A DNA stretch of 46,351 bases from a virus. The notes beneath the pieces were generated by a model that saw only the letters and a list, made by a program, of their open reading frames with translations, searched no databases and was not told where the DNA came from. Position numbers and translations under genes: made by a program. How positions within the stretch are numbered: position 1 is the first letter of the stretch; the number at the start of each line of letters is the position of its first letter. The stretch covers positions 1 through 46,351 of IMG/VR virus record IMGVR_UViG_3300047318_000434, one strand, 5' to 3'. Positions 5,659-44,091 of the stretch are shown here, piece by piece.

Positions 5659-5761
5659 TTCGGTTGCACGCTCCTGTGCTGGATGGGCGATTGCGTGCGT
5701 CGCTCGCCCGGCCAGCACCGGGACGCCTCAACGCTGAGGCGCATGGAAAAGCACGGGTGCA

Positions 5762-5810: not shown

Positions 5811-5824
5811 GGTAAATGCGCGAG

Positions 5825-8089: not shown

Positions 8090-8142
8090 GGCGGGTTCCT
8101 CCTGGGGCTTCTTGGTGGACCGCACCGTGCCCCCGCCAGGTG

Positions 8143-9753: not shown

Positions 9754-9998
9754 CGGCGATCCCGGCAAGGTTCGCTGCCCACGTCGGCGAGACCATCAAG
9801 AACCTGGCCGGCCCTGACAAGGAGGAGCTGCACACCGCGATCCTGCGGGCGTGTGCGGACCCGATGTCGTGGCCGCAGGCCGACAAATACGAGATGGACG
9901 AGACGGTGCGCGTCATCACGACGCGCGCCGCCATCGTCCACTACGTGATCCTTCTCGGCGCGGATCCGCACCTGTGGGTGTTCGCCATTACCGTTTGA
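9750..9998 (+). CDS. Putative RelE/ParE-like toxin
   Basis: An 82-aa protein starting at a GTG that overlaps the antitoxin stop, with GGAGGAGG upstream inside the antitoxin gene. It has two N-terminal helices, then beta strands VRVITTRAAIVHYVILLG and HLWVFAITV that match the strand pattern of the RelE/ParE fold. Catalytic residues cannot be assigned by eye. Its last 11 nt overlap the 3' end of the convergent minus-strand gene. The most likely role is growth inhibition or element maintenance together with the upstream antitoxin. Confidence 0.65.
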   Translation: MTAIPARFAAHVGETIKNLAGPDKEELHTAILRACADPMSWPQADKYEMDETVRVITTRAAIVHYVILLGADPHLWVFAITV

Positions 9999-10239: not shown

Positions 10240-11490
10240 TTACCGGGTGGCGAGCAGTCCGAGGAGGAAAGCCCTCAGATCGTCATCCCTGTACCAGTCG
10301 CCGGAGAACATCGTCGCGAGCCCGCGGGCCGCGATCTGCTCGTCGGTGACCTGGTCCGCCTGGCCGCCGAACAGTCGCGCCAGCAGTACGTCCAGCGTGC
10401 TGCGCCGCGCCCCGGGCCGGCCGGTGTGGGTCCGGGTGAACCCGAAGGCCTCCTGAGCGGCCAGCAGGTCCGGGTAGTTCCGCTGAAGGTGGGCCAGCAG
10501 GGCATGGGCCGCGGTGGCGCGGCCGCCGTCGCCGAGGTCGGCAATCGTGGCCGTGCCGCTGTCTGCGTCGTACGCGCCCGCGTCACCGCTGACCGCGGTC
10601 ATAAACCGCGACGCCCGGTCGGCCAGCCACTCACGCGGCACGTACTGGGCCGCGTCCGTCAGCGCCCGCGTGGCGGCCGCGTCACTGCTGTGGCTCAGCG
10701 TCAGCCGGTTCCTGCCGCCGGGGCCCATCTCCCGGACCTGGGAGAGGGTGTCGCGCACCGCGGAGGGCAGTGCCGCCGTGTACGCCTGCTGGAGCCGTTC
10801 GGCTTCCTGCTGCGCGTGCTGCGCCTCCAGCCGGGCCGCTGCAATCTCCGGAGCGAGGTCCGGCGCATTGGTGCCGGCTGCCACCGCCCGGAGGTCACGC
10901 AGGCGGGCCTCCGTCCGGTCCGCGTACCGGCGGGCGTGCCGCACGGTGCCGTGCGGGTCGTCCCCGAGCTCCGGCGCGGCCGCCGTAAGCCGGGCGATCA
11001 GATCGGCGTCCACGTCCGCGCCCGCCGCGCGCAGCGCCGCGAGGTGCCGCAGCGCCTGCCGCCCGGGCCCGCGGTCCGCAGCCCGGTCCATGGTCCAGCG
11101 CACGCCGTCCTGCACCTGGGGCAGTTGCCCCGCGGCCAGAGTCGTCCGCGCGGCGGATCGGTACCAGCGGCTACGGCGCGCCACCTGACCGAAGCGGCCC
11201 GGGGCGGGCAGCAGTTGCGCCCAGTGCGCCACCTTCTCCGCCAGCGACATCCCGTCCCCAGGCCGGGGCAGGGACCGCGCGGCGGAGGCCATGCGGCGCA
11301 GGCGGCGCGTCTCTGGCCACGACCGGATCCGGCGGCCGAGACCCTTGCCGAAGCGGGCGATGGCCCGGCCCGTGGCCTTCACTCCGGCCGCGAGCGCCTT
11401 GAGGAACGCGGCCACCAGCTCCACGATCCTGCGGGCGATCTGCATCAGCGCGGCCACGATGCCCGCCATGAGCCCGGGCCGCTGCCCCTC
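10240..11490 (-). other. Giant protein C-terminal region: amphipathic helices and zincin-like remnant
   Basis: Residues about 6825-6885 form a basic amphipathic or hydrophobic stretch (IARRIVELVAAFLKAL, then GRAIARFGKGLGRR), which could touch membranes or DNA. The last 150 residues, ending RDDDLRAFLLGLLATR, recall the end of phage head-associated metallopeptidase-like domains. The expected HExxH is not there: the matching place reads AHALLAH. An inactive version is possible, but this homology is weak. Confidence 0.35.
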
Positions 11491-26400: not shown

Positions 26401-29400
26401 GAGTCGCTTGCTGAAGATCGGGGCCTTGGTGGTCTTGCCGGTGGTGTCGTCGTACTCGTCGAGCGGCGTGATGTTCGCCATCGTCGGGTCGTTGGTGAAC
26501 AGGCCGCCGCGCGCCGCCTTCTTGCGGTACGTCTTCTCAACCTTCTCCCCGGTGTCCGGGTCGACGGCGGTGCGCTTCGACCACGTGAACCGGTTGATGG
26601 CGCCGAACTTGGAGTGGTACGCGTCGTACTGCTTGTTGAGCGCCTCGCGCAGCCGCTCGATCAGGGACTCGTCGGCGTCCTTGCGGTTCTCCTCCGAGAG
26701 GAGGGACTGGAACGTGTCGCGGATCGCGAGGAGCTGCCGGGCCTCGTTCGCCTGCGTCTTGAAGACGGGGAAGGGGTGCACCATGCCGTCGCGGACCTGC
26801 GTGAAGGTCCCGTCCGGTTCGGCCTGCACGTGCCCGTCGACCCGGGAGGAGCCGGGCGGCAGAAGCGTGACCCTGCTGCGGCCCTCCGTGTCGGGCTTGT
26901 AGGCGAGGCCTGCCGCCTTCGCCTCCTCGACGGTCCGCTTCAAGACTCGCTGGAGGTTGGCGATGGTCTTGCCGTCGCCGTCCACGCGCAGCTCGTTGTC
27001 ACGGTTCATGCCGTGGCCGACCGCGAGCCTGCCGAGAACCTGCTGCGGGTTGTCGTGGAAGTAGCTGTTGTAGAAGACAGGCGGCTCGGCCTGCTCCGGC
27101 GGCGTGTCCGCCTTGGGCGGGTTCTGCCCCGGCAGGGCGTACGTGGGCAGGGAGTGCACCCACATCGGCGGGTCGTTCTGCGTCCGCTCCGACGGCCGCT
27201 TGACCTCACCCTTGCGGTTGCGGCCCGATGTGAACGACTTGCTCTTGTCGCGGCGCCGGAAGATCAGAAGGTCTGTCATCACCGACGTGCCCGCGGTGCG
27301 CTGGTGCGCGCCGGACGGCAGACGGATCGCGCCGACGAGCTCGGCCTTTTCCGCCATCTCCATACGGGCGGCTTCGCTGCGCCCGCCGTGGCCGTCCATC
27401 GTCAGCGCGGACGTCACGACCGAGACCAGGCCGCCACCACGGGTCAGGTCCAGGGACTTGAGGATGAAGTGGTTGTGGATGGAGTGGCCACCCTTGTTGT
27501 GCACCAGGTCGGGCACCTTGTACCGGCCGAACGGCACGTTGCCGACCGCCGCATCGAAGGTGCCGTTGGGGGCGCGGGTGTCACCGAAAGACTCATGCCG
27601 GACTTCGGCGTGCGGGTAGAGGGCCTTCGCGATGCCCGCGGTGATCGAGTCGACCTCGACACCGGTCATGTGTGTGCCGTCGGGCGCGTAGCCGATGAAG
27701 TTGCCGACGCCGGATCCGGGCTCCAGCACACTGCCGGCGTCGAATCCGAGGTCGGTCAGGGCCGACCACATCTGCTGCACGATCTGCGGGTCGGTGTAGT
27801 GCGCGTTCAGGGTGTTCGCGCGGGCGTCGTCCCACTCGGCATCGGACAGCAGGCTCCGCAGCCGCTTCGCGAGCGGCTGGAACTGCGCATCCGGCTGCGG
27901 CTTGAAGATCTGGGGGACCGCGCCCCACCCGGAGTACCGGGCAAGTTCCTGCTGCTCGGCCCCGGTCGCGGGACGGTTCTCGTCCTGGAGCCGGCGCAGG
28001 ATCTCAATGGCGGCGATGTTCGCCTTGGCCCGGTTGACCGGGCTCGACGGAACGAGGGTCTTCCCGTCGGCGGGCGGCTCGTAGGCCGGAGCAGTCGCCT
28101 GCTGCTCCGGCGTGCCGAACGCTACGGGAGCGGAGGCAGCTCCACCCGCGGCATGTCCTTCGTCTCCGTCCCCGGATCCTTCGGCATCCCGTACACCATG
28201 TCCTGAAGCACCCGCTCCCGGGCCCGCATCCGGACCGACTTCAGCTCGCGAGCCCGCGCCACCGCGTCCGTCCCCTCCCGCAGCGGAGGAGCCCACTCCT
28301 CCGTCAGATCCTCGATCTGCTGCACGATCTCGTCCGACCGCTCCCGGGCGAACTCCTCGAACGCCTTGTCCGTCGGGAACCGATCCACTTCCCTGGCCCG
28401 GTACGTCTTCCAGAACGTCCGAACGAGATCCACGTACGACACTGTCATTGCTCCTCTTGTGCTGTTCGGACAGGGCCTGTCGAGCGACGCTCACGTTCTC
28501 ACGCGCCAGGCGCAGGAACTCGGCCGCATGGGCGTGGTCGCCGCCGCGGCCGCGCAGCGCGCGCTGCATGCCGTCGAGCGCGTCCTGGAACCGGCGGATT
28601 GCCTCCGACGGCTCGATGTCACCGCGCTTCAGCGCGTCCACGGCGTCTCCGGCAGGCGCCGCTAGGTCGAGCGCAGCGGGCGCACCGCGCAGCTCGGTCA
28701 GACTGTTGACGACCGGGCCGAGCTGCTGCTCTGCCAGATCGAGCGCTTCCACGATGTGGTGGCTGGCGGCGGTGACGGCCAGGGTGGGGCGCTGCTCGCC
28801 CGGGGCGTCGTCCTGCGGCTCCGTAGGCACGTCGGACGCGGCAGGGGGAGCGGGCGGGCGCTCGCTGTCGTGCTCGCGCACCAGGTCCGCGAGGGCCGCC
28901 TCCTCGGTGAGGAACGGCTTCTTGGAGCTGTAGCGGGTGCCGTGACCGAGCCGGTTCCACGTCCAGCGACCCGCAGAGCCCTGGAGCGTGGCGTCGTCCT
29001 GGTTGTCGCCATCGACGGCGGCGGGGCGGTGGCCCGAATCGTTGCGCGCGCCGAGCTGGACGCGGGAGAGCTGCTGTGCGTACGCCTGTCCGTCGCGGCG
29101 CTGGGCCTCGGCGAGGATCGCTGTCTTCTCAGCCTGGGCGCGGGCCTTCTTCGCCTGGTCGCCGGAGGACAGGGTGTCAGACCAATCCTGGTCGGCCTTC
29201 GCGTAGGCGGCGTCGAGGTCCTCGCGCGACACCTGCGACCAATCCCGCTGCTCGGGCGCCGCCTGCGGGGCTGGCTGCGGGGCGTCGGGGTTCGGGGTGT
29301 TGGCGCGGTTGCCCGCGTATGGGGTGCCGTCGGGGCGGGTGATGTCCTTGAGCGCGTGGGAGTGGGTGCCCTGCTCGGCGCGCACGAGCACCGACCCGGA

Positions 29401-32228: not shown

Positions 32229-32599
32229 GGCGTTGTCTCCTTGGTCTCCTCGGGGGGTGCAGGCAGGGGGCGGGCGCCGTGCCCGTCGTAGGGGGCAGCA
32301 ATGCCCGCGTCGATCAGGTCCGTGTTCAGGCACGCGCCGTCGGCGGCCGAGACCGTGGCGAGCCATCGGCCGTACTTCTCCCGGGCGTGGGTCTCCACCA
32401 CCAGCTCGGGGCCGTGCTCGGTGAGCCATTCGGCCACCCACGCCTTCGCGGCCTTGCCCTCCGGGGCGTTCTTCTCGGGGGCGTTCAGGCCGTTGAGGCG
32501 GAGCCGCTGCCGGGTGCGGATCGTGAAGCCGAGGTCGAGGTCAACGTCGAGGGTGTCGCCATCGACCACGCGAAGGACTGTGGCGGGGTAGGTGTTCAC
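32225..32599 (-). CDS. Staphylococcal nuclease (SNase)-like protein
   Basis: A 124-aa protein matching the thermonuclease fold: VDGDTLDVDLDLG (Asp13, Asp15), RLNGLNAPE (Arg34, Glu42) and EKYGRW (Arg78), then LIDAGIAAPYDG near the C-terminus. Arg34, Glu42 and Arg78 match the catalytic Arg35, Glu43 and Arg87 of staphylococcal nuclease. The calcium-ligand Asp40 position holds Asn39, which I believe is common in the phage/plasmid branch. No signal peptide, so it acts in the cell or virion. GTGA overlap with the portal gene indicates coupled translation. It could degrade host DNA or trim packaged or incoming DNA. Confidence 0.85.
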   Translation of the reverse strand: MNTYPATVLRVVDGDTLDVDLDLGFTIRTRQRLRLNGLNAPEKNAPEGKAAKAWVAEWLTEHGPELVVETHAREKYGRWLATVSAADGACLNTDLIDAGIAAPYDGHGARPLPAPPEETKETTP

Positions 32600-35064
32600 G
32601 GCAGGTCACGCCCTTCGGTGCGGTACCGCAGGCGGCAACGGCAGTTGATGGTCAGGTGGAGCGGGGCGAGCTGATCGCCGGGGAACCGCATCGGGTAGCC
32701 GTCCACGTCGAACGGCCTGGTGACCGGCAGGGTGGTGCCGTCCACGGCCTCATGTGCGGGCCGTACGCGGTCGTCTCCGCGGGTGACCCAGGTGCGGACG
32801 ATGCCGGGGCCGATCGCCGCGGCGGTGGCCTCCGCGGTGCCGTTGACGGTGGCGACGGCCGCGGTCTCGGCGGCGCTCGCTATGGCCTTGGCTGCCATGT
32901 CGCCGAACGCGGTCCGCGCGAGCGCCACCAGGTCGTCAATGTCGTCGGCCGCCAATTGCCCCTGCACCAGGAGCGTGGTGACGCTGTCGAGGAAGCCGCG
33001 GGCGATGCTCTCGGCGGCTGCCACGGCGTCGAGGACAGCGGCGGTGATGCGCGGCGAGGCCTCCGGCGGCGGCTTGGGGGCGCCGAACGCGTCGGCGGTG
33101 CGCTGGGAGACGGTGGCGGCGATGCGGGCCAGGACCCGGGCGAGCGCGCCGGTGATCTCCTCCATCCACCGGTCCGTGCCGACGATGCGCGCCACGTCGA
33201 GCGTGGTGTCTCCGCCGCGGATGTCCGATGGGTCCTGCGCACGCCAGAACTTGGTGCCCTTGCGTGTCTTGGGGGAACGCAGCCGGGCGGCGATCACGCC
33301 GTCCTGCCGGGCGAACAGGGCCTCAAGGGCGAGGGCTATCGCCTCTTGCGCGCGGTCGAAATCGTCGTCGGTGACCTCGAACGAGGGGCCGTCATCATCC
33401 GTGCCGGACAGTGCCTTGGTTTGCAGGCCTCGGGCGTCCTCCACGGCGGCTGCGGCCTCGCCCGGGGCGGGCGGCAGCTCGTTGGCGGTGCGGGCATCGG
33501 CGACCGCGGCCGCGGCTTCCCCGGCGCCGGCGGGCTGCTCGATGCCGGTGCGGGCCTGCGAAACCGCGGCGGCCGCCGGGCCGTTCGTGTCCGGCAGTGC
33601 GCCGGGGCCGGCGGGCTGTCCGCCTTCGGCGCGGGCCTGCGCGACGACGTCGGCCGCCGATCCGTCCGCCTGCTGCTGTGTGGGGTCGAGCGGCGCGTTC
33701 GGTCCGCCCATGCCCGGGATGGCGCCTGCGCCGCCTTGTGTGGGGTCGCCGTTGCCTTGGATGCCGAGCGCCGCGGCGTCCTCCGGGCGCAGCGGCACGG
33801 GCGCCTTCTGCGGGCTGATCCACAGGGCGCGGGAGTGCGGGTTGTTGTAGGCGGGCATGCCCGCGCGGCGCCGGTACTCGTCAATGGAGATCAACCCGGC
33901 GTCGAACTCGGATCGGGCTTCCTCGCGGCGCTTGCGGCGCGGCAGCTCCAGCGCCTGAACCGTCGAGGTGTTGTAGCGGATCTTCAGATCCAGGTCGCCG
34001 ACGTCCCCGGCGAACGCGTCGCTGATCAGCGCAAGGTGGCCGAGCTCCGTGTGAATCCAGAACCCGTACTCTTCCTGCTCGGCGTTGTCGAAGGTGCGGC
34101 CGGAGGCGTTACCGGTGACGGACTCGGGGACACCGAACGCGCCGAGGATCTCGATCTTCGCGTTCTGCGAGGCATGCTCGTAGGCCATCTCGCGCGGCTT
34201 GGTCGCAAGGTCCACGTAGTTCATGCCGCCAGGGCCTGCGCCGACGACGGAGACGTGCCCGGCGTACTGGGAGCCGGGCAGGAACCGGGCCTCCAGTCGG
34301 TCCATGTCCGAATCGGTGAGCGAGCCCGTGTCCACGGCCACGATGCCGCCGGGCCGTGCGTCGTTGCGGATGAACGCCACGTTGTACAGGCGGGACAGGT
34401 GGTCGAGTTCGATGCTGATCCCGGCGGCTTCCAGCGGCGTGACACCGGAGAACGGATCGGTCGGGTGAGGCTTCCTGATCCAGCGCACCCGCTCCGGATC
34501 GAGCTCACGGACGTGCCCGTACAGGGTCGTGAACTCGAAGTGCTTGATGTACTCGCCCTTTTCGTCGGGCACGGGGATGACCCGGTCCGGCGGCAGCAGG
34601 TCGAGACGTGTGATGGTGCCGCGGTTGCTGCGGGTCACCTCAACGAACGCGCCCCGCTTGGATAGCAGGATCTGCGCGGACAGCCGCTTACGGAGCTGCG
34701 CCCCCGACTCCATCGGGTTCGCGTGCGGCCCGTTCAGGACCCGCAGAAGCGGATGGTCCTCAATGACTTCCTCGAACTCGCCGTCTTCGGTCAGGCCGCG
34801 CCCGATCTCCAGCGGAAGACGGGCGGCGTGCTCGCCCATCGTGTCGATGGCCTTGTAGACCCAGATGACGCGTTCGTATCCCTCGGTGACCACCCGGCCG
34901 AGGTCCCAGCCGTCGGCGCGGCCCTCGGTGCCCCACACGTTGGTCGTACCGGCGTAGGTGGTGGAGGTGTAGCCACCCGTCCACGTGATCGTTTTCGACT
35001 CGTCCGGCTGCGGTCCTGGGGTGACCAGTGAGCGCAGCGCGGGAAGCCAGCGGCGTCGGGCCAT
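32596..35064 (-). CDS. Portal protein fused to a MuF-like head morphogenesis domain
   Basis: The ATG at 35064 has GGGGAGGAG just upstream, giving 822 aa. Residues about 20-440 are an HK97-type portal, with an N-terminal segment, DLLPPDRVIPV, and the PGGIVAVD...GSLTDSDMDRL region of the family. Residues about 470-560 are Ala/Pro-rich imperfect repeats with AAAVxxARTxxELPPAPGE-type units. After a linker with TKALS and a helical region, the last 120 residues are a MuF (SPP1 gp7-like) domain: TWVTRGDDRVRPAHEAVDG and a terminal HLTINCRCRLRY. MuF domains usually form a separate minor head protein, though fused forms exist in actinophages. The portal makes the DNA entry channel. Confidence 0.9.
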   Translation of the reverse strand: MARRRWLPALRSLVTPGPQPDESKTITWTGGYTSTTYAGTTNVWGTEGRADGWDLGRVVTEGYERVIWVYKAIDTMGEHAARLPLEIGRGLTEDGEFEEVIEDHPLLRVLNGPHANPMESGAQLRKRLSAQILLSKRGAFVEVTRSNRGTITRLDLLPPDRVIPVPDEKGEYIKHFEFTTLYGHVRELDPERVRWIRKPHPTDPFSGVTPLEAAGISIELDHLSRLYNVAFIRNDARPGGIVAVDTGSLTDSDMDRLEARFLPGSQYAGHVSVVGAGPGGMNYVDLATKPREMAYEHASQNAKIEILGAFGVPESVTGNASGRTFDNAEQEEYGFWIHTELGHLALISDAFAGDVGDLDLKIRYNTSTVQALELPRRKRREEARSEFDAGLISIDEYRRRAGMPAYNNPHSRALWISPQKAPVPLRPEDAAALGIQGNGDPTQGGAGAIPGMGGPNAPLDPTQQQADGSAADVVAQARAEGGQPAGPGALPDTNGPAAAAVSQARTGIEQPAGAGEAAAAVADARTANELPPAPGEAAAAVEDARGLQTKALSGTDDDGPSFEVTDDDFDRAQEAIALALEALFARQDGVIAARLRSPKTRKGTKFWRAQDPSDIRGGDTTLDVARIVGTDRWMEEITGALARVLARIAATVSQRTADAFGAPKPPPEASPRITAAVLDAVAAAESIARGFLDSVTTLLVQGQLAADDIDDLVALARTAFGDMAAKAIASAAETAAVATVNGTAEATAAAIGPGIVRTWVTRGDDRVRPAHEAVDGTTLPVTRPFDVDGYPMRFPGDQLAPLHLTINCRCRLRYRTEGRDLP

Positions 35065-35065
35065 G

Positions 35066-35428
35066 TCACTCCTCCCCGCCGCACACCCACACCGCGACGG
35101 CAAGCAGGGCGGCGAACAGCAGGGACCACGGGTTCACGGAGTACGCCACCGCGGTGATCAGCATCAGGCCGGCGGAGAGAGCGCCGTAGCCGCCTACCAG
35201 CCGGATCAGGCGTGGCACGGGCGGTGTGGTCTGAAGGACTGCGCCGCCTGCCGTGGCGGTGAGGAGCCCGATCAGGAGCAGGGCCACGGCCGGTGATCCC
35301 ATGGACAGGGCTCCCAGCAGGCCGACCGTTCCGGCGCCGACCAGGAAGAGGCCGATCAGGTCGCGGGCGAGGCGTCGCCGCGGTGCCCGATGGCTGGGGA
35401 GCGGTGGGGGCTGCGTTGGAGGATTCAC
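35066..35428 (-). CDS. Multi-pass membrane protein upstream of the portal
   Basis: A 120-aa protein starting with a GTG and a Pro-rich, basic N-terminus (about 1-22). Four hydrophobic helices follow at about 23-42, 45-65, 75-92 and 95-115, and it ends CGGEE. No ribosome site precedes the GTG, but a short hairpin lies directly in front of it. Its stop is 1 nt from the portal start. The function is unknown. Similar small membrane proteins near phage packaging genes may act in exclusion or lysis timing. Confidence 0.65.
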   Translation of the reverse strand: MNPPTQPPPLPSHRAPRRRLARDLIGLFLVGAGTVGLLGALSMGSPAVALLLIGLLTATAGGAVLQTTPPVPRLIRLVGGYGALSAGLMLITAVAYSVNPWSLLFAALLAVAVWVCGGEE

Positions 35429-35642: not shown

Positions 35643-36092
35643 CTATCGGGCAGGGCGGGAGACGCCGGAGACGTAGGCGCTGATGCCGCGCCGCTGGATC
35701 TTGCCGCCCGGGATCAGCTTGGCGTTCTTCGGGCGCTCGGGAACCTTCCGCTTGGCGCGCACCGCCTGATCGCCGCCGATGAGGTGCCGGTTGTCCATGA
35801 GGGCCTCGCAGTCCCCGCCGACGACGTCCTCATAGGGGCGACGGCAGGCCCGGCAGTACACCTCCAGCGCATCGACGCGGGTGGCGGTGGGGGTCGTAAA
35901 CGAGCCGCGGAAGTCGGCTTGCTTCGCCACCCGGGCCTCAACCTTGATCTCCGCGGCGACGATCCACACGTGCGCGCGGGTGTCGGTCTGGACCGGCGGG
36001 GCGGCGGCCGGCGGGGGCGCGTCCAGTGGCTCATCGAAGATGTTGGCGAAGAGCCCGAGCTCTAGTTGGTCGCGTACTACCGCGGTCGTCAC
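35643..36092 (-). CDS. Zinc-ribbon-like phage protein
   Basis: A 149-aa protein starting at GTG 36092 with CGGAGGA upstream. The N-terminus is Pro/Ala-rich. The middle is a beta region (HVWIVAAEIKVEARV). The C-terminal half has YCRACRRPYEDVVGGDC and NRHLIGGD, that is two or three Cys and one His in a spacing that suggests a zinc ribbon or HNH-like fold. A basic tail follows. It heads the late operon where a terminase small subunit or packaging endonuclease would be expected, but I cannot assign either. Confidence 0.6.
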   Translation of the reverse strand: MTTAVVRDQLELGLFANIFDEPLDAPPPAAAPPVQTDTRAHVWIVAAEIKVEARVAKQADFRGSFTTPTATRVDALEVYCRACRRPYEDVVGGDCEALMDNRHLIGGDQAVRAKRKVPERPKNAKLIPGGKIQRRGISAYVSGVSRPAR

Positions 36093-36260: not shown

Positions 36261-37127
36261 TCAGAGCTTGGCCACGCTGACGAACCCCAGTGAGCGAAGG
36301 CCTTCGGCCTGGCACAGCCGGTCCGAGGCGCCCCCGATCTCGGTCTGCAAGAGCTGGTAGTCAGCGCCGTGCGTGGCTCCCCATGCCATAGCGGCGCGCC
36401 ACAGGGCGCGGCCGTGGCCGTGGCCGCGGTGCTCGGGCAGAACGCCGAAGTACTGCGGCAGGAGCCGGGTTGCCCCGGCCGAGTCGGGCATGGTCTCCAT
36501 GGGGCCGATCGCCCCTACGACGCGAGCTCCGTCGGTGGCAGCCAGGACAGGGCCGACGGAGCCGGTCTGCATCTGGCTGTGGAGGAATGCGAACCCGTCG
36601 CTGGTCAGCCGGTCGGCGAACGCGGCGAACGTCTCCCGTGTCGGCTGTGGCAGGACGTCCACCGCGCGGATGGGGCCGGGCTGGTCCTCGATCCTGGGGT
36701 GGGTGAATGGCTTCAACTGGACTCGGGTGACCGTGGTCCCGGCCGGTGGCGTCTCGTCGGGGCCGTGGAAGGTGACCACCCGGGCGGTGGAGACGCGATG
36801 GCCGGCGGTGAGCTTGGCGGCCAGGCTTGCGGCTTCTTCAGCGGCGGGCCCGTAGGTGTAGACCGTGAGGGTGCCGCTGCCGCGGGTGCGCAGCGTGGGG
36901 ATCAGAGTCCGGGCGGTGGTGTGCTCGATGTGCTCGGGCAACACCGTTTCATCCTTCGTCTCGGTCCAGCGCTGATCCTTGTCGTAGGGCAGGAACGTGC
37001 CGGTTCCGGCGACGCGCTGCACGTCATCGAACAGGGCCGGGGCCAGGGCGTCGGGGTGGACGGGGCCGATCGTCGGCACGTACGGCACCTGGATCACGGG
37101 GTGCAACCAGTCCCACAGCAAACGCAT
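36261..37127 (-). CDS. GNAT-family acetyltransferase of the RiPP-like locus
   Basis: A 288-aa protein. The C-terminal half has the acetyl-CoA-binding GNAT core: ARVVGAIGPM (strand), then QYFGVLPEHRGHGHGRALWRAAM (the R/Q-x-x-G-x-G/A loop) and a final LGFVSV strand. The N-terminal 160 residues are unusual and may recognise the substrate. It is the last gene of the operon, after the precursor peptide and a strong hairpin. In this setting it could acetylate the mature peptide or confer self-protection. The fold is certain; the substrate is inferred. Confidence 0.8.
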   Translation of the reverse strand: MRLLWDWLHPVIQVPYVPTIGPVHPDALAPALFDDVQRVAGTGTFLPYDKDQRWTETKDETVLPEHIEHTTARTLIPTLRTRGSGTLTVYTYGPAAEEAASLAAKLTAGHRVSTARVVTFHGPDETPPAGTTVTRVQLKPFTHPRIEDQPGPIRAVDVLPQPTRETFAAFADRLTSDGFAFLHSQMQTGSVGPVLAATDGARVVGAIGPMETMPDSAGATRLLPQYFGVLPEHRGHGHGRALWRAAMAWGATHGADYQLLQTEIGGASDRLCQAEGLRSLGFVSVAKL

Positions 37128-37158
37128 GGGGCCAACGCTACTCGTCTGCCACGCACGG

Positions 37159-37193
37159 CTCGGGCCCCGGCGCGGAATACGTCGGGGCCCGAG
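37159..37193 (-). terminator. Hairpin between precursor peptide gene and GNAT gene
   Basis: A perfect 11-bp inverted repeat, CTCGGGCCCCG / CGGGGCCCGAG, with a 13-nt loop and no T-run. In RiPP operons such stems after the precursor often give partial termination or 3' protection, so that more precursor than enzyme is made. Confidence 0.6.
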
Positions 37194-37216
37194 TGATTGT
37201 TACCGGTTGCGACCGG

Positions 37217-37420
37217 TTAGTGCGGGTTGTCGTCGCCCGCGTTGCAGCTGCACTTCGCGCTGTCCATGAGCGCGTCCATGTTGGTGATGCCGGTGATCTG
37301 GGTGACCGGCTGGACGGGGACGGGGGCCGGTCGTGTGAAGTACGGCAGGCCTTCGCCCTGGGTGGGCCCGTCGTCCGGGAGCGGGCGCCTGGGGGAGATC
37401 TCGACTGCTACAGCGGTCAT
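37217..37420 (-). CDS. Putative RiPP precursor peptide
   Basis: A 67-aa peptide encoded 2 nt after the radical SAM gene stop. Residues 1-45 look like a leader (Pro-rich, with GLPYFTRPAPVPVQPVTQI). The C-terminus TNMDALMDSAKCSCNAGDDNPH is the likely core, with Cys57, Cys59, two Asp and a terminal His. A short, Cys-containing peptide next to a SPASM enzyme is the standard layout of radical-SAM RiPPs, in which Cys or other side chains are cross-linked. I do not recognise this core. The cleavage point and the modification are unknown. Confidence 0.65.
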   Translation of the reverse strand: MTAVAVEISPRRPLPDDGPTQGEGLPYFTRPAPVPVQPVTQITGITNMDALMDSAKCSCNAGDDNPH

Positions 37421-37422
37421 GT

Positions 37423-38538
37423 TCACCCTGCTTTCTTCTGTCCGTGCTGGCAGTAGCTCGCCAGCGGGGCTTTCGCCTCCTGGTAGTGCTTGGCCAGGGG
37501 CCTGCATACGGTGCAGGAACCGGAGAGCGTGCAGCCTGAGCAGCCTCCGGTGCGAAGCATCAGGCGGTCCGCGATCGCGCCCAGTCGGGCGAGGCCCTCG
37601 ATTCCCTCTTGGGGGAGGCTGATCTGGTCGTCGCGGCCGATTTTGCAGATGGACACCAGGCCGTGCGGGTCCATGTGGAAGAAGGTGTGTCCGGCGTTGC
37701 AGCCCGTGAACTGCTTCCGCATCCGCAGGTGTTCCTTGGACTGCGCGGTGAGGACTTCCCCGCCCCCGTAGATGGTGGGGGTCATGTTCGTGTAGACCTC
37801 GCGCTCCACACCCCACCGGTCGCAGAGGTCGATCATCGCCTGTTCTTCGTGGGCGTTGTCCTCGGTGACGATGACGCTCATGCGCAGCGGCAGCCGGGCC
37901 CGCCGGGCGGCGTTCATGCCCTGGACGAACAGGTCCCAGGCGCCTGCGCGCTGCGTCAGCTCGTCATAACTGGCCTTCGTCGCGCCGTACATGGAGACCG
38001 TGACGCGGTACGGCGGGCACTCCTCGAAGAGGCGCAGCAGGTTCTCGCGCCACAGCAGTGAGCCGTTGGTGGAGACCGTGAGCATCATGCCGAGCTCGAA
38101 CGCGTGCCGGTACGAGCGCATGAAGTCCTTGTCGACGACTGGCTCACCGCCCGTGATCTGAAGCCACAGCACCCCGGCCCCGGCCATGGTTTCCAGGCAG
38201 CGCAGCTTGTCCGCCAGCGGCATGCCGCTGTTCACCTTGAGCCCGAGATAGCAGTGTTTGCAGGCGTAGTTACAGCCGAGGTTGACCTCCCAGCTCGCTT
38301 TCGAGTAGCCCCAGGGGGACGGCTGCCGGACGAGCAGGAAGTCACCCGCCGGCCGCCCGGCCGTGTCCATGCCCCACTGGTCGCGGACGGCGTGGGCCAG
38401 CCACGCGGGTGCGGGCTGGGCAGGGTCGTGGGCCCGCAGCTCCTCATAGTTCGCTTCGGGCAGGAGAAGGCCGTCTTTGTGGCCGGGCCGCAGGAGCAAG
38501 TGCTGTTCTAGGAACGGGCTCGCGATCAGGGTGTACAC
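37423..38538 (-). CDS. Radical SAM/SPASM peptide maturase
   Basis: A 371-aa enzyme starting at a GTG with CTGGAGG upstream. Cys89, Cys93 and Cys96 (CNYACKHC) form the CxxxCxxC site for the SAM-binding 4Fe-4S cluster, and GGEP follows near 135. The C-terminal region has GCNAGHTFF...GLVSICKIG and then CSGCTLSGSCTVC...YC, the Cys pattern of a SPASM domain with auxiliary clusters. The first 80 residues may hold a leader-binding part. It should install a radical-made bond, for example a thioether or a carbon-carbon link, on the adjacent precursor. The upstream gene overlaps it by 13 nt. Confidence 0.85.
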   Translation of the reverse strand: MYTLIASPFLEQHLLLRPGHKDGLLLPEANYEELRAHDPAQPAPAWLAHAVRDQWGMDTAGRPAGDFLLVRQPSPWGYSKASWEVNLGCNYACKHCYLGLKVNSGMPLADKLRCLETMAGAGVLWLQITGGEPVVDKDFMRSYRHAFELGMMLTVSTNGSLLWRENLLRLFEECPPYRVTVSMYGATKASYDELTQRAGAWDLFVQGMNAARRARLPLRMSVIVTEDNAHEEQAMIDLCDRWGVEREVYTNMTPTIYGGGEVLTAQSKEHLRMRKQFTGCNAGHTFFHMDPHGLVSICKIGRDDQISLPQEGIEGLARLGAIADRLMLRTGGCSGCTLSGSCTVCRPLAKHYQEAKAPLASYCQHGQKKAG

Positions 38539-39161
38539 GAGGCCTCCAGGGGGCTTGAGCTGTCACGGAGTTCGGGCATGTCGACCAGCGTCACGTCCAC
38601 CAGGGACGCGGCGAGCTGGGAGCCGACCATCCACCGGGCGCGCGCGGAGCTGAAGAGAGCCACGTCCCGCGCGCCGGGAATCGGGGGAGGGCCGGGCAGG
38701 TACATCTGGCCATAGACGCCGTCGAGAATGACCCGGCCTGCGCGTACCGCCACGACGTTGTCGCGCAGGTGCGGGCACAGGCGAGCCGCTACGGCCGCGC
38801 ACGGGGCGCATACCGGCGGGTGCGTCGTCACCTCGTCCTCGGGCCAGCCTCGCTCACCGTCGGCCCGGTGGTCTTCCAGCAGCCACAGCCAGCCGAGTTC
38901 GTTGCGGTCCGCGGGGCCGCCGCACACCTGGCACAGGAGCCGCCGCATCGCGCGTCGCTGCCGGGGCCCATGGACCTTGCCGTACTCGGGGCGGCCCGCC
39001 CCCTGCTTCAGCGCCCACGGCTGCCAGGACACCCCCGTCGTGTCGCGTGGCTGCCCCGCCAGGATGATGCCGTCTCCGGCCTGGAGGACGCGGGGCATCG
39101 GCTTGTGCTCGCCGCTCCAGGCGGTGATGTACGGCACGGAGGTTCGCGCGTGGGTCTTCAT
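38526..39161 (-). CDS. Cys-rich protein of the RiPP-like locus, unknown function
   Basis: A 211-aa protein from ATG 39161 with a GAGAG site. It has CQVCGG at about 76-81 and CAPCAAVAARLCPHL at about 117-131, giving two CxxC pairs plus Cys and His that should hold a metal, probably zinc. The N-terminal part contains PRVLQAGDGIILAGQP. It overlaps the radical SAM gene, so the two are likely made together. Whether it serves peptide processing or is a hitch-hiking gene is not visible; I know no function for this family. Confidence 0.65.
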   Translation of the reverse strand: MKTHARTSVPYITAWSGEHKPMPRVLQAGDGIILAGQPRDTTGVSWQPWALKQGAGRPEYGKVHGPRQRRAMRRLLCQVCGGPADRNELGWLWLLEDHRADGERGWPEDEVTTHPPVCAPCAAVAARLCPHLRDNVVAVRAGRVILDGVYGQMYLPGPPPIPGARDVALFSSARARWMVGSQLAASLVDVTLVDMPELRDSSSPLEASCTP

Positions 39162-39234
39162 CTCTCATCTCACTCGTGGCAGGGCGTGACGGGTAGTGGG
39201 ACCGGCCCCGGGCAGCAGACACCGCACGCAGAGA

Positions 39235-39828
39235 TCAGGAGATCGTGCTCAGCACTGATCCGAGGAGTGTTTCGTGAGGCGCGGGGCCGGGCTGGTAGTG
39301 GTCGAGCAGGTTCCGCAGGGCCTTCGGCGGAACGAGCCGGTCACCGCGGCAGGGGCGCAGCCAGTAGGGGCCCGGCGGCTCTGCCGCCGTCATCACGGGT
39401 AGGGCGACGTGGTGCGGGCGGCCGAGGCACGATGCGTACCGGTGCGGCTCCCACTGCTCGCTGGTGCCGGGCGGTACGAACCAGATGAGCCACGACCGTT
39501 GAGGGTCTTCGATCACTGGTCCGCACGCGTCGGGCTGTTCGTTGCCGTTGCCCTGGATGCCGTCCATGGCCTTTATGGCGGCGTACGCCTGCGGGCCGCT
39601 CGCCGTGACGACGACGTCGAAGAAGCGGCCGCCTAACGGCAGTTGCAGCACCCGCTGGTGCTGTAGCGCCATCAGGCTGCGTACGCGGGCGGCCAGGTCG
39701 CCCATGTCCGGGGCTACGGATCGGGGGACCATGGGCGCGGTGCTCGTCGGGAAGCGGACAGGGGCCGCGTCCGGCAGTTCCCGGATCGGGTCGAGCTCCC
39801 TGCGGGGCAGCTGCTGGGCGAGACTCAC
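39235..39828 (-). CDS. Unknown protein coupled to the HATPase
   Basis: A 197-aa protein. GTG 39828 overlaps the HATPase stop (GTGA), which excludes the much longer frame that reaches 40467. Features are PVIEDPQRSWLIWFVPPGTSEQW, GPYWLRPCRGDRLVPP and a C-terminal helix ending LGSVLSTIS. There are no membrane segments. The pairing with a small histidine-kinase-like ATPase next to a TPR regulator is a layout I associate with Streptomyces regulatory clusters. Function not recognised. Confidence 0.65.
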   Translation of the reverse strand: MSLAQQLPRRELDPIRELPDAAPVRFPTSTAPMVPRSVAPDMGDLAARVRSLMALQHQRVLQLPLGGRFFDVVVTASGPQAYAAIKAMDGIQGNGNEQPDACGPVIEDPQRSWLIWFVPPGTSEQWEPHRYASCLGRPHHVALPVMTAAEPPGPYWLRPCRGDRLVPPKALRNLLDHYQPGPAPHETLLGSVLSTIS

Positions 39829-40409
39829 TCCGCCTTCTCCCCCCAGCTCGGGGGAACGAGCGCTTTGACGGTCTTGCCCACGACCATTCCGTCGCCGTCT
39901 CGCTTCTCGTCCCATGACAGTTCGGCCCGGTAGTGCTTCACCCACCACAGCCCGCGGCCGTTGGGGTGGTCGGCGGAGGTCACCGCAGCGAAGTTGGGGA
40001 AGTCGGGGTTGTCGTCGTCCACCTCGATGAGGAGTTCTTCCGTGTTCGGGAGCACCGTCAGCCGCAGGCCCACGCAGCCGTCGCTGAACGGGTTGCCGTG
40101 ATTGGCGGCGTTGTCCACGAGCTTGTCGGTGATCCGCGCCGCCACGTCGACGTTCCCGGGCCAGCGGGCGACAGTGAGTCGAGGGCGCACCCGCAACCGG
40201 GCGTTGGGGCCGGCCGCCGCGTTCGCCAGCAGCTTGGTTTCCCACCTGTACCGAGGCATCTCCTGCTCCTCCAGCGGCAGGAGGAGCACCGTGGAACTCA
40301 CCGGGTGTGTCTCGGCTGCGAGTTCGGCGGCCTCGCCGGGCGGAGCATCGGTCCTGGGCGCTTCCGCGTCGCGTAAGGGGGAAGCTGTGTGCTGCGTTGG
40401 CGGGTTCAC
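39825..40409 (-). CDS. Histidine-kinase-like ATPase (HATPase) protein
   Basis: The longest frame is 194 aa from GTG 40409. The GHKL ATP-binding core shows the N box DKLVDNAANHG, the G1 box VDDDNPDF and the G2 box GRGLWWV. There is no histidine phosphorylation domain, as in anti-sigma-type kinases and the many small Streptomyces HATPases. An internal ATG at 40259 has GGAGGAG upstream and gives a 144-aa protein of the usual size, so it may be the true start. The extra 50 residues are Pro/Ala-rich and include a TTA codon (codon 12), which would make the long form bldA-dependent. Confidence 0.75.
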   Translation of the reverse strand: MNPPTQHTASPLRDAEAPRTDAPPGEAAELAAETHPVSSTVLLLPLEEQEMPRYRWETKLLANAAAGPNARLRVRPRLTVARWPGNVDVAARITDKLVDNAANHGNPFSDGCVGLRLTVLPNTEELLIEVDDDNPDFPNFAAVTSADHPNGRGLWWVKHYRAELSWDEKRDGDGMVVGKTVKALVPPSWGEKAE

Positions 40410-40540
40410 GGGGGACTCCCAGATTCACGATTGTGCACGGTCGGACACTCTCAGCGAGCGCTGTCACGAGCGTTGCAATCGTGTGTGGACGGATCTACCC
40501 CCATACCGCCCCCGGCCTTTGGAGAGAAGTTGACGGTTCT

Positions 40541-40570
40541 CCTCGGACTTTCCTCGGACTTACCTCGGAC
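40541..40570. repeat. Three tandem CCTCGGAC repeats, 11-bp period
   Basis: CCTCGGAC begins at 40541, 40552 and 40563, exactly 11 bp apart, so the copies face the same side of the helix. They sit in the divergent gap between HATPase and TPR-regulator genes, just right of a TTGACG (40530-40535). This is a good candidate binding site for the regulator. Confidence 0.6.
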
Positions 40571-40577
40571 CCGGTAA

Positions 40578-40585
40578 GTAACGTC
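40578..40585 (-). promoter_or_regulatory. GACGTTAC element in the divergent cargo promoter region
   Basis: The minus strand reads GACGTTAC here, 169 nt ahead of the GTG at 40409. It partly matches the elements before the phage genes; a single 8-bp match could be chance. Confidence 0.25.
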
Positions 40586-40647
40586 TGTAGAGGGCACCTT
40601 GATTGGGACAGCGTTCTACCGTCGGATCAGTGACGTGCCGTCTGATG

Positions 40648-41991
40648 ACCGGGGAGGAAGCCTTGTTGTTCTTCCAAAGCACCCTCAAGTTACGCGGCAT
40701 ACGCACCCCCGACGACTTCCTCCCGGAGTACCGGAAGGCAGCCGAACGGCTCGAACTGAGGGACGTGGATCCGGCCCCGAAGACCATCGAAGGATGGATC
40801 TACGAGGGGCGGAAGCCGCAACGGGCGTTCCGCCCGGTCATCGCCGAGATGCTGGGCTACAGCATTGAGCAGCTGTGGTCTGAAGTCCCGGAGGGCACCA
40901 CGCTGCACTTCGTTTCGCTGGCAGGCGCGTCACCGACTGCACTCCATGCCGAGCTCGGCATGGACCTGATCGAGATGAAAAGGACGGGCGCGATGGCAGT
41001 GCGACGCGCGAAAGACTTCCTCCTCGGGGCAGACCGCGAGCGGGTGGGCGACGACACGCTCGGCGTGCTCGACGACGAGGTGCGGCGCCTGGTCGCCGAG
41101 TACCCCCGTGTCCCCCTGTCGACGGTGTGGCCCGACCTGCTGGAGACCCAGGAACAGGTCTTCCGACTCCTGGAGGGCGGCAGAGTCCGGCCGTCGCAGC
41201 TCCGCGACCTGAACGTCGCAGGCGCCATCCTGAGCTTCCTGGTCGCCAAGGGGTTCAACGACATGCAGGACCCCCACGAGGCCATGACGATGACCCGGGT
41301 CGCCGCGGCCTGCGCCAGGGACGCCGAACACCCCGGGCTCATCGCCCTCACCGAGGGCCTCAAGTCGCTCATCGCGTACTGGGCGCAGCGACCCGAGGAT
41401 GCGTACCACTACGCCAGTCAGGGCGCTGAGACTGCCGCCACCCTCCAGGGAACCGTGGGTCTGTGGCTGCTCGGCCTCCAGGCGCGCGCCGCCGCGGTGC
41501 TGGGCGACGAGGAGACCGTGCATGCCGCGAACCGGCAGGCAGCGGACCGGCGAGAGACCGTCGTGCCGGACGACCTGGATGGGCTCGGCGGCCTGTTCAC
41601 CTACGCCCGGGCGAAGCAGCTCTACTACTCGGTGGAAGCCCAAGCGCTCCTCGGTAACGGGGGCGTGCAGCTCGCCGCCCAGGCCGAGGAAGCCGTGCAG
41701 GGCTTCAGCGACCCCACCGCCCCGGACTGGGCGTTCGGCGACCTCGCAGGCTCTCAGTGCGATCTCGCGCTCGTCCGGCTCTACAGCGGAGACGTGGACG
41801 GAGCGGCGGCCGCCATCCGTCCGGTGCTGAACCTGCCTGCCTCCCACCGCAACAACGGGATCATCGTCTCCGCCATGCGCGTCAGGAACTCCCTGACCGC
41901 CGGCCCCGTGCGGACGGCCGTCGCCGCGCGCGATCTCCGGGCGGAGATCGAGGCGTTCCCGGCCAGCCGGCCCGCGCTGCCCCGCGGGTAG
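40648..41991 (+). CDS. TPR-type transcriptional regulator
   Basis: A 447-aa protein from ATG 40648; GTG 40630 and TTG 40603 are alternatives, and none has a ribosome site. The N-terminal 75 residues form a helix-turn-helix-like domain (RTPDDFLPEYRKAAERL, then KTIEGWIYEGRKPQRAFRPVIAEMLG). The remaining 350 residues are helical repeats of TPR type (EAMTMTRVAAACARDAEHPGLIAL, SQGAETAATLQGTVGLW). This is a common Streptomyces regulator design in which the TPR part senses a ligand or peptide. It is divergent from the HATPase and RiPP operon and probably controls it through the 40541-40570 repeats. Confidence 0.75.
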   Translation, partial: TGEEALLFFQSTLKLRGIRTPDDFLPEYRKAAERLELRDVDPAPKTIEGWIYEGRKPQRAFRPVIAEMLGYSIEQLWSEVPEGTTLHFVSLAGASPTALHAELGMDLIEMKRTGAMAVRRAKDFLLGADRERVGDDTLGVLDDEVRRLVAEYPRVPLSTVWPDLLETQEQVFRLLEGGRVRPSQLRDLNVAGAILSFLVAKGFNDMQDPHEAMTMTRVAAACARDAEHPGLIALTEGLKSLIAYWAQRPEDAYHYASQGAETAATLQGTVGLWLLGLQARAAAVLGDEETVHAANRQAADRRETVVPDDLDGLGGLFTYARAKQLYYSVEAQALLGNGGVQLAAQAEEAVQGFSDPTAPDWAFGDLAGSQCDLALVRLYSGDVDGAAAAIRPVLNLPASHRNNGIIVSAMRVRNSLTAGPVRTAVAARDLRAEIEAFPASRPALPRG

Positions 41992-42000
41992 AGTCCGGGC

Positions 42001-42552
42001 ATGTACCCGGTCACTCGTTCCAGCGCACGCCTCGACCTGCGAGAACTCGCCATCGAGGACGTGGACGCGGTGCTAGCCATCTACGGCAGCCCAGAGGCGA
42101 CGGAGCATCTGTCGTTCGAGCCGCGTACTCGTGAGCAGGTTGGGCAGATCGTGGCCCGGTCCATCGCCGCCGCCACGGCGACGCCCCGCACGGAGTACGC
42201 GCTCGCCGTCATCGAGCGAGAGACGGACGAGCTGATCGGGTTCGGCCGCCTGGCCATCGACCCCCACCAGCAGCGCGGAGCCACCATGGGTTTCGCGCTG
42301 CGCCCGGATGCGTGGGGCGTGGGCTACGGCGTGGAGACGGTGCGGCTGCTGCTCGCCGTCGGCTTTGACGACTTGGGCCTTCACCGCGTGTGGGGCGCGC
42401 GGTCCCCGCTCAACGAGGCCTCCGCGAAGACCATGACGGCCGCCAGCATGGTCGAAGAGGGGCTGATCCGCGAGCACGTGCTGAAGGCCGGGGCGTGGCG
42501 TGACTCCGTCGTGCATGCGATCCTTGATCGCGAGTGGCGGCCCGCCTTTTGA
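42001..42552 (+). CDS. RimJ/RimL-type GNAT acetyltransferase
   Basis: A 183-aa protein that starts 10 nt after the regulator stop. It opens TRSSARLDLRELAIEDVDAVLAIY, the RimJ/RimL-like entry, then has ELIGFGRLAI, GATMGFALRPDAWGVGYGVETVRLLL (acetyl-CoA loop), LHRVWGARSPLNEASAKTM and a closing beta strand. It probably acetylates an N-terminus or a small molecule. Its operon with the regulator suggests it belongs to the cargo module, but it may be unrelated. Confidence 0.8.
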   Translation: MYPVTRSSARLDLRELAIEDVDAVLAIYGSPEATEHLSFEPRTREQVGQIVARSIAAATATPRTEYALAVIERETDELIGFGRLAIDPHQQRGATMGFALRPDAWGVGYGVETVRLLLAVGFDDLGLHRVWGARSPLNEASAKTMTAASMVEEGLIREHVLKAGAWRDSVVHAILDREWRPAF

Positions 42553-42577: not shown

Positions 42578-43750
42578 TCATCCGGCCGTGTCGTGTCCGC
42601 CGAGTGGCACCTTGGACAGCGGGTCTTCCTGAAGATGAGTGTGGGGCCGGTCGTACACCGTGTCCGCGGTGTGGGAGTCCGTCGCCCAGCGGCCGCGCCG
42701 GTTGCGTTCCCGTAGCGGCACCCCGGCGGCGATCATGTCCGTGTTGGCGCCTGCGCGCAGCGAGTGCGCCCGCACCTTCTTCCCGCCGATGTAGGGGATG
42801 CCTGCGAGCTCGGCGTACCGCTGTACCCGCTCGTTGAGGGCGCCGCCCTTGAGGTGGTCACCGCGGCGGGTGGCATTCGCCCGGCCCTTGAGGTTCCCGG
42901 CTACCGTCAGCGCCCGGAACAGCGGCTGATCGGGGCCGTCCGCGCCGAGCTTCTTCAGCACGGCGAGCCACGCCTGAGCGCGGGCGACGATGCGGAGGTC
43001 TTCCCGGTCCTGGATGAACTCCGTTGCACCCTTGGACTGCCGGTCGGTCTTGGACGTCGCCGTGGTGACGACGAGACCCATCGGCGTCACCTTCACGTGC
43101 TTGACGAGGAGGTCCGCCAGCTCCACCCGGCGGTGCAAGTTGGCGTAGGCGAGGGCCAGCAGGAAGGCGTCCCGGATGCCGATGTGCGTCGACTCGTCGC
43201 AGTGCTCCATGCAGCGCAGCAGTTCCGCGAGGGTGAGCGCCGCGGCCCGATCGACCTCACCGCCGGCCCCGGCCCAATCCTTGCGCCACAGGCGGATCTT
43301 CCCGCGTACGCGCGAGGGATCGGGGCGCATGCCCTCCGGCTGCCAGTTCCAGAGGCGGCTCATGTACTGGCCGACCGTGTCCGGCTTGAAGTCCCCTGCC
43401 CGGCCGCGGCGGATCAGGTGCAGGCCGTACGCGGTGTACGTCGCCGTGGTGCACGGCCACGCGATCCGCGGCGGGTGTTGCTGGGCGCACCACTCCTCGA
43501 AGGCGGCCACGGTGGAGTCCCGGTTGATGAGCGTGTTCTCGGCGAGGTCGGGCTCATCGAGCTCCGCCTTGTCCTCGGCGGAGATCCGGAAGTCGGCTTC
43601 GGTCCACGGCGGCCGCGCATCGGCGCGCGGCGGCATCTCGCCGGGCCCCAGCATGGTGTGCTGGTTGACGAGGTAGCGCACCGGCTCCGCGTCGGCCGCG
43701 GTGACCAACTCGGCTTCGTAGACCTCCAGATCGGCGCTGCCCGCGGTCAC
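42578..43750 (-). CDS. int: Tyrosine site-specific recombinase (integrase)
   Basis: The GTG at 43750 overlaps the upstream stop (GTGA) and gives 390 aa; a longer frame from 43867 would run into the upstream gene and is rejected. Catalytic residues are Arg207 or Arg208 (HRRVELADLL), Lys234 (TSKTD), His329-x-x-Arg332 (HSLRAG), Trp355/His360 and the nucleophile Tyr366 (DTVYDR). Residues about 70-165 form the core-binding domain and the first 65 are probably an arm-binding part. It would integrate and, with a directionality factor, excise the element. The attachment site is not identified. Confidence 0.9.
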   Translation of the reverse strand: MTAGSADLEVYEAELVTAADAEPVRYLVNQHTMLGPGEMPPRADARPPWTEADFRISAEDKAELDEPDLAENTLINRDSTVAAFEEWCAQQHPPRIAWPCTTATYTAYGLHLIRRGRAGDFKPDTVGQYMSRLWNWQPEGMRPDPSRVRGKIRLWRKDWAGAGGEVDRAAALTLAELLRCMEHCDESTHIGIRDAFLLALAYANLHRRVELADLLVKHVKVTPMGLVVTTATSKTDRQSKGATEFIQDREDLRIVARAQAWLAVLKKLGADGPDQPLFRALTVAGNLKGRANATRRGDHLKGGALNERVQRYAELAGIPYIGGKKVRAHSLRAGANTDMIAAGVPLRERNRRGRWATDSHTADTVYDRPHTHLQEDPLSKVPLGGHDTAG

Positions 43751-44091
43751 CGCCCATCCTCCCCGTCCTGGGCGCCCGCAATGAACTGCTCGGCCCAGGG
43801 CTCGAACTCCGCCGCGAGGTCGGCGCGCGGGTTGGGCGCGGGCGGCATCATCTTCAGCATCGGCCACGTTTCGACGGGGTGCTCGACGCGGCCGAGGTGC
43901 GCGAGGCGGTCCGCCGGCGGGACGGGCGTCTCTTCGCGCGGCGTGGCCCGGGGCTTCCAGGTGGGTTCGGTGTGAGCGAAGTGCTCCGCGCGTTCGCGGA
44001 GGGCTTCCTTGAAGGCCGGGTCTGCCGAGGTGCCCATCGGGCCGAGTGCGGGATGCTCCTCGGGCTGCTGCGGGCTGCTCTGGTCGGTCAC
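43747..44091 (-). CDS. Small Pro/Ala-rich protein coupled to the integrase
   Basis: A 114-aa protein from GTG 44091 with GGGGAGGGGA upstream. The composition is rich in Pro, Glu, Ala and His with few hydrophobic stretches; the C-terminal part (NPRADLAAEFEPWAEQFIAGAQDG) is an amphipathic helix. It shares a promoter with the integrase and overlaps it by 4 nt. Helper or recombination directionality roles are possible, but it lacks an obvious DNA-binding fold. No family is recognised. Confidence 0.6.
   Translation of the reverse strand: MTDQSSPQQPEEHPALGPMGTSADPAFKEALRERAEHFAHTEPTWKPRATPREETPVPPADRLAHLGRVEHPVETWPMLKMMPPAPNPRADLAAEFEPWAEQFIAGAQDGEDGR

Follow-up and report, generated by a model that had tools for sequence, protein, structure and literature searches.

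The closest described relatives of the peptide locus analysed here are the radical SAM (rSAM) peptide maturases SkfB (sactipeptide), CteB and SuiB (streptide). The locus lies in IMGVR_UViG_3300047318_000434, an IMG/VR virus record of 46,351 bases analysed at its full length (hereafter the window), and comprises an rSAM gene, a gene for a 67-aa precursor peptide and a gene for a GNAT-fold acetyltransferase (hereafter the cassette). As in the described systems, an enzyme of rSAM fold adjoins a short precursor, and its N-terminal domain aligns with those of SkfB and SuiB. In contrast, it is about 12-17% identical to the three maturases, it has a GNAT or, in sister cassettes, an APH-type kinase as partner, and it gives no hit to the Pfam SPASM model (PF13186) with E allowed up to 1. 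The cores of this family, C-x-C-x-A-G-D-D-N-P-H or G-C-x-D-D-N-P-Y, are presumably unlike those of SkfB, CteB and SuiB; set against sactipeptides, the window core has two cysteines and the GC..DNPY types have one. The pathways to mycofactocin and pyrroloquinoline quinone (PQQ) likewise have a short conserved peptide as the substrate of an rSAM, but no mft or pqq partner genes are present here and the model scores are low.

The sublancin locus of SPbeta is a phage-borne biosynthetic gene cluster (BGC). An antiSMASH survey of 2112 actinobacterial prophages found BGCs in 13 of them, and class I lanthipeptides were reported in Streptomyces prophages (PMC10023795). These are likewise biosynthetic cargo on phages, but the passages of that paper considered here describe neither a fixed cargo slot nor such an rSAM family. 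According to a 2025 review (PMC12360287), intracellular lanthipeptides protect Streptomyces from phages and their clusters lie near defence systems. These lanthiphages are also short Streptomyces peptides made by ribosomal synthesis and post-translational modification (RiPPs); lanthionine enzymes are absent from our locus, and an anti-phage role would be assigned to it by analogy. An excerpt of a 2026 mBio paper (PMC13343842) places the S. coelicolor lanthiphage cluster beside the cvn8 conservon, a placement similar to that of a relative of our cassette on plasmid NBC_00080 (L063, 1-9250), which lies near a complete conservon with a GAF protein and a zinc metalloprotease.

We conclude that the cassette very probably encodes RiPP biosynthesis. 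We also consider it likely that it makes a small RiPP for the lysogen, as one of several interchangeable cargoes of a slot, and that the product acts inside the cell.

The maturase, its precursor and their family

The operon consists, in order, of genes for a small HATPase, a 197-aa protein, a Cys-rich protein, the rSAM, the precursor and the GNAT, with a TPR regulator and a second GNAT divergent from them. The stretch from GNAT to rSAM, including the Cys-rich gene, covers 36261-39161 (minus strand). The genes that the initial annotation had named at 36261-41991 are all present (rSAM, 67-aa precursor with its CSCNAGDDNPH end, GNAT, Cys-rich protein, HATPase and divergent TPR regulator), and its list lacked one operon gene, 39828-39235 (minus strand). 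Three genes make up the cassette, the maturase having an N-terminus that resembles a RiPP recognition element (RRE):

37423..38538, minus strand: radical SAM peptide maturase, 371 aa (Radical_SAM PF04055, 1.7e-12; CxxxCxxC at residues 89-96; seven further invariant Cys; RRE-like N-terminus)
37217..37420, minus strand: precursor peptide, 67 aa, ending CSCNAGDDNPH (core 37220-37252; homologues at the same place in most loci)
36261..37127, minus strand: GNAT-fold acetyltransferase with an extra N-terminal domain, probable tailoring enzyme (PF00583, 2.9e-06; directly after the precursor in GNAT-type loci)

The precursor starts 2 bases past the rSAM stop. Among 66 rSAM sequences, cysteine is invariant at ten positions, and the C-terminal invariant set (C280, C298, C333, C336, C342, C345 and C363) is as for auxiliary clusters, with a spacing near, although not identical to, what we take to be the SPASM motif. 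The earlier label of SPASM enzyme thus holds for the cysteine pattern and not for the Pfam model. The AlphaFold2 model of the rSAM (mean predicted local distance difference test score, pLDDT, 88.6) retrieved SkfB first with Foldseek (1.4e-15), then BlsE, CteB and SuiB. With VIA-align, the model aligned with SkfB over residues 3-349 (Z 21.9, root-mean-square deviation 5.8, 315 aligned) and with SuiB over residues 1-364 (Z 21.6, deviation 5.1, 322 aligned), whereas the alignment with CteB begins only at residue 76. Since the first two alignments start at residues 1-3, the N-terminal strands (4-9, 12-16 and 23-25) and helices (28-36 and 45-55) predicted in the whole-protein model coincide with the region in which SkfB and SuiB have their RRE. 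The GNAT model (pLDDT 93.4) found tandem GNATs as structural matches.

The precursor is a real gene, whose core amino acids are conserved while the codons vary. Over the last 11 codons of 57 GNAT-type precursors, we counted 3884 synonymous against 1732 non-synonymous pairwise differences (17556 codon comparisons), compared with 5951 synonymous and 21498 non-synonymous over the preceding 25 codons (39900 codon comparisons). A genome-mining search for the precursor and its neighbours, which the initial annotation had proposed, found the rSAM-precursor order repeated in more than 100 loci; from this repetition and the synonymous excess in the core, the pairing is far beyond chance. By a loose pattern, 101 of 115 precursors have a Shine-Dalgarno-like motif ahead of the start. 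Pfam gave no family for the two precursors tried and NCBIfam none for the four tried, except for a chance-level match to the window precursor (0.094), which did not match the FxLD lanthipeptide model TIGR04363. The earlier view that the core lies outside known RiPP families agrees with these searches.

The rSAM search returned 53 loci in genome contigs, nearly all from Streptomyces, 4 loci in viral contigs, 8 plasmid records (coverage of at least 80%) and phage Success in two database copies. The rSAM occurs in 74 of 392 sampled Streptomyces genomes (E up to 1e-40) and, with a different query and at 1e-60, in 17 of the 394 genomes of a class-wide sample. In nearly every locus, the rSAM is followed by a short open reading frame (ORF) ending in CSC[NDAS]AGDDNPH or a variant such as GCGDDNPYN or CSCSAGDDQPY. 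We found no description of the exact core strings or of this rSAM-peptide family in open-licence PMC papers, and the family is apparently both widespread and undescribed. In two loci (L150 and L152), a VEIxPRP-like segment is repeated two or three times within the precursor leader, and two others (L177 and L183) have an in-frame TGA within the rSAM.

A redox cofactor or metal-binding factor derived from the peptide, comparable to PQQ or mycofactocin, would agree with the nearly invariant core, with the lack of an exporter and with the match of the rSAM to the mycofactocin maturase model TIGR03962 (5.5e-17), which at 61.9 bits stays far below the cut-off of 265. Such a product is nevertheless improbable given the patchy occurrence of the rSAM in Streptomyces, its carriage by phages and plasmids, and the lack of a conserved partner oxidoreductase among its neighbours.

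The chromosomal copies of the cassette are scattered over many Streptomyces. The initial annotation would have been refuted by the same cluster at one chromosomal place in many Streptomyces without phage genes, which is not what is found: in the group of loci at 64% identity, only 20 of 231 pairs have as much as one gene cluster in common at a distance of 3.5-10.5 kb, and in the 80% group 21 of 45 pairs do. The viral state changes 9 times on the rSAM tree, with labels that include contigs called phage by collection or depositor only. That the cassette lies on a phage is confirmed by head or terminase genes in the record behind L154, in phage Success, in NBC_01220 and in the window population. 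Plasmid phiDSM40276 and the IMG/VR contigs behind L057 and L146-L153 gave no match to three head/terminase families and are phage by collection label or depositor's name only.

Core end and tailoring enzyme

From 155 loci, 24 with identical rSAM sequences were dropped, which left 131 distinct loci; 7 of these had no readable core. Among the 124 readable cores, an APH-type kinase accompanies Tyr 63 times, a GNAT accompanies His 52, Phe 4 and Asn 3 times, and neither enzyme is found with Phe twice. All 63 APH-type cassettes therefore have a Tyr core end, and APH is found in none of the 61 non-Tyr cassettes. Phage Success and plasmid NBC_00080 carry cassettes of the Tyr type. The two loci with neither enzyme (L062 on a phage-plasmid and L114 on a chromosome) cluster together among the APH-Tyr loci on the tree, which was built from 117 loci after omission of 14 of the 131 as fragments or over-long frames. 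On this tree, the enzyme type changes three times and the end residue six times, giving two independent contrasts on starred branches, which both agree, or three in all.

As a hold-out, we used ten further class-wide loci (L173, L174, L176, L177, L179, L180, L183, L184, L185 and L188), nine of which have a readable core. All nine agree, Tyr cores occurring with APH and the single non-Tyr core (L188) without it. Two of them (L173 and L174) were first seen as GNAT with Tyr; in the wider sequence, both have an APH following the rSAM, precursor and GNAT. The rule that GNAT never goes with Tyr was thus broken, and the rule that Tyr goes with APH took its place. Since these two loci carry both enzymes, GNAT and APH can act in series. 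Acetylation of the terminal His by the GNAT is unlikely, because Phe, Asn and Tyr ends also occur with this enzyme.

These two enzymes could also be read as self-immunity. The cassette would then make a secreted antibacterial RiPP (bacteriocin) for competition, with GNAT and APH protecting the producer by acetylation and phosphorylation, as resistance enzymes do. Both folds are common among resistance enzymes, the precursor is directly followed by one or the other, and phage-borne bacteriocins are known. Nevertheless, we hold a bacteriocin to be unlikely: the core is nearly constant across many species, unlike typical arms-race peptides, and the occurrence of both enzymes in series at two loci fits tailoring better than alternative immunity. 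Moreover, neither an exporter nor an immunity gene is found among the conserved neighbours of the cassette, and the product is therefore most likely intracellular.

The phage-plasmid cargo slot

The window is a phage contig, with portal, protease and capsid genes on it. On the minus strand, its genes run from right to left as integrase, cassette locus, portal-MuF, a 7240-aa ORF, prohead protease and major capsid gene:

42578..43867, minus strand: tyrosine integrase, outer border of the slot (PF00589, 6.4e-10; phrog_1)
35643..36092, minus strand: conserved 149-aa protein, inner slot border (copy with 77-83% identity upstream of the portal in L157, L158 and L159)
32596..35103, minus strand: portal fused to a MuF-like domain (PF04860, 1.7e-39; PF04233, 1.4e-05)
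10240..31962, minus strand: giant 7240-aa ORF, phage context (Eco57I-methylase-like, SNF2 and UvrD helicase domains)
5825..8125, minus strand: prohead protease, phage context (head-gene profile matches)
4357..5718, minus strand: major capsid protein, phage context (head-gene profile matches)

Integrase and portal also bracket the cassette in two contigs of the same population (L056 and L058), and a homologous cassette occupies the same slot in the complete circular phage-plasmid NBC_01220. The phage carriage claimed by the initial annotation is borne out by the head genes and this bracketing. Together with the scattered chromosomal copies, the bracketing and the NBC_01220 copy rule out that the cassette is a chromosomal hitch-hiker. 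The numerous chromosomal copies might suggest that an assembly error or a prophage border set chromosomal genes beside phage genes; this is hardly credible given the flanking genes in all three contigs and the cassette on NBC_01220.

A search for relatives of the portal gave 12 viral loci and 7 Streptomyces plasmids (query coverage of at least 80%). These plasmids are complete and of 125-133 kb, five being circular and one linear, plus the circular NBC_01220, while the window is a 46-kb fragment. By these relatives, the window phage very probably belongs to a group of Streptomyces phage-plasmids of about 125-137 kb. Where enough sequence is visible, a variable stretch is preceded by an integrase or by a regulator-HATPase-DUF6415/DUF5999 module and followed by the portal and a giant ORF.

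We counted the content of this slot in 14 records (window, L062, L157, L158, L159, L161, L162, L163 and L166-L171), L158 beginning within its ATP-grasp gene and L167 at the first base of the record. L055, L155 and L156 (the population of the window) and L160, L164 and L165 (too little sequence upstream of the portal) were omitted. A RiPP maturase is present in the slot upstream of the portal in 8 of the 14 phage-plasmids, a plain count for this one position. The rSAM family described here occupies the slots of the window and NBC_01220. ATP-grasp maturases are found in S. zaomyceticus, L158 and L163. The S. zaomyceticus genes carry the annotation tgmA/tgmB, and over the first 49 kb of this plasmid the annotation lists no further RiPP gene; L158 and L163 match TIGR04187 (3.2e-71 and 7.4e-92) below the model cut-off. 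Lanthipeptide dehydratases are found in L161 (PF04738, 5.2e-193) and L162, in the latter with an FxLD precursor (TIGR04363, 8.5e-11). The S. anulatus slot has another rSAM with a grasp-type methyltransferase. Slots with RiPP classes other than ours (lanthipeptide, graspetide or another rSAM) are thus those of L161, L162, L163, L158, L170 and L171. The remaining cargo includes a methyltransferase (L157), queuosine-type and nucleotide enzymes (L166), ThiS/EgtB/GalE-like genes (L167), methyltransferases and a cysteine desulfurase (L168), and a D-Ala ligase with Mur-like enzymes (L169). The cassette is very probably cargo of this phage-plasmid slot. The initial annotation had called such cargo unusual, which does not fit the frequency of RiPP maturases in the slot of this phage family; such cargo in this position suggests that the phages supply small molecules to their hosts.

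Five genes beside the cassette belong to the slot rather than to the peptide:

38526..39161, minus strand: Cys-rich (zinc-ribbon-like) protein, slot module (reading frame runs into the start of the rSAM gene; homologues beside other cargo)
39235..39828, minus strand: 197-aa protein, slot module (55% in L157, 45% in L170)
39825..40409, minus strand: small HATPase (GHKL), slot module, start uncertain (weak PF02518 match, 0.011, below cut-off)
40603..41991, plus strand: divergent TPR regulator, NsdA-like (NsdA-family TPR, 4.8e-19, 69.2 bits against a cut-off of 75)
42001..42552, plus strand: second GNAT (Acetyltransf_3), integrase-regulator module (78% in L157)

Phage-plasmid L157 shares the regulator (83%), the HATPase (53%) and the 39235 gene (55%) with the window and has different cargo. 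Homologues of the Cys-rich protein stand beside other cargo in L169 (plasmid 11x1, Mur/D-Ala ligase-like; 57%), L170 (37%) and L166 (33%). Because their homologues accompany different cargo, the regulator, the HATPase and the Cys-rich protein are parts of a slot module and are ruled out as peptide-specific parts. The compact RiPP cluster of the initial annotation is thus reduced to rSAM, precursor and GNAT; the HATPase and TPR regulator that it named are present, both with matches below the model cut-offs.

The divergent regulator also raises the possibility of a modified signalling peptide that this TPR protein would sense, with a logic as in arbitrium or Rgg. TPR proteins are common peptide receptors, and an XRE/TPR-type regulator is divergent and upstream in most loci of the family. 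However, the regulator of L157 accompanies other cargo without this precursor, and the same cassette is found with regulators of unrelated families, which makes a signalling role quite improbable.

Other features of the window were also noted. The prohead protease is fused to a 2'-5' RNA ligase-like domain (PF13563, 5.6e-13), and giant ORFs comparable to that of the window come after the portal in related phage-plasmids too. Two small overlapping ORFs at 9496-9998 (plus strand) run opposite to the general gene direction; by eye, they presumably resemble a ribbon-helix-helix and RelE-like toxin-antitoxin pair. A gene at 29-664 (minus strand) matches a phage poly-gamma-glutamate hydrolase family (phrog_4175, 2e-38).

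Proposed pathway and its meaning

In the pathway that we propose, the rSAM would bind the leader of the precursor through its N-terminal RRE-like domain and put a radical modification into the conserved C-terminal core C-x-C-x-A-G-D-D-N-P-H. The GNAT would next acetylate the product at a site other than the last side chain, and a host protease would cut off the leader. In sister cassettes, the APH-type kinase would act on Tyr-ended cores. The shared regulator-HATPase module would switch the cassette on, and the product would act within the lysogen, as a form of lysogenic conversion or perhaps against competing phages.

Several points weigh against this proposal. The product, transcript and modification of the cassette are predictions from its genes. 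A dedicated leader peptidase or exporter is missing, and the PADLOC defence models recognise nothing in the cassette except for a general viperin-like match of the rSAM (1.3e-13). Since the enzyme type changes only three times on the tree, the kinase-Tyr pairing rests on two or three contrasts and a sign test cannot reach 0.05. Moreover, an orphan APH-type kinase (5524-6339) lies about 3.7 kb upstream of the His-type cassette of L051, and in 12 of the 61 GNAT loci fewer than 2,500 bases are visible downstream, so that the absence of APH is only partly checked there. Finally, RiPP cargo is missing from 5 of the 14 slots, and a sixth (L159) has an rSAM of unclear kind without a recognised precursor.

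By analogy with the lanthiphages, an anti-phage role of the peptide, perhaps in superinfection exclusion, is a tentative possibility. A wider claim, in our view doubtful as a whole, would be that Streptomyces phage-plasmids hold a dedicated interchangeable RiPP slot and that these rSAM peptides form an undescribed, intracellular, prophage-borne anti-phage class, with cores finished by acetylation and, if Tyr-ended, by a Tyr-phosphorylating kinase.

The present analysis adds a widespread rSAM peptide family that is unnamed in the libraries searched, and its kinase-Tyr pairing is a directly testable chemical prediction. If the slot is general, phage-plasmids would form a mobile reservoir of RiPP pathways in a genus better known than any other for its natural products, and the small molecules of a lysogen may come and go with its phage.

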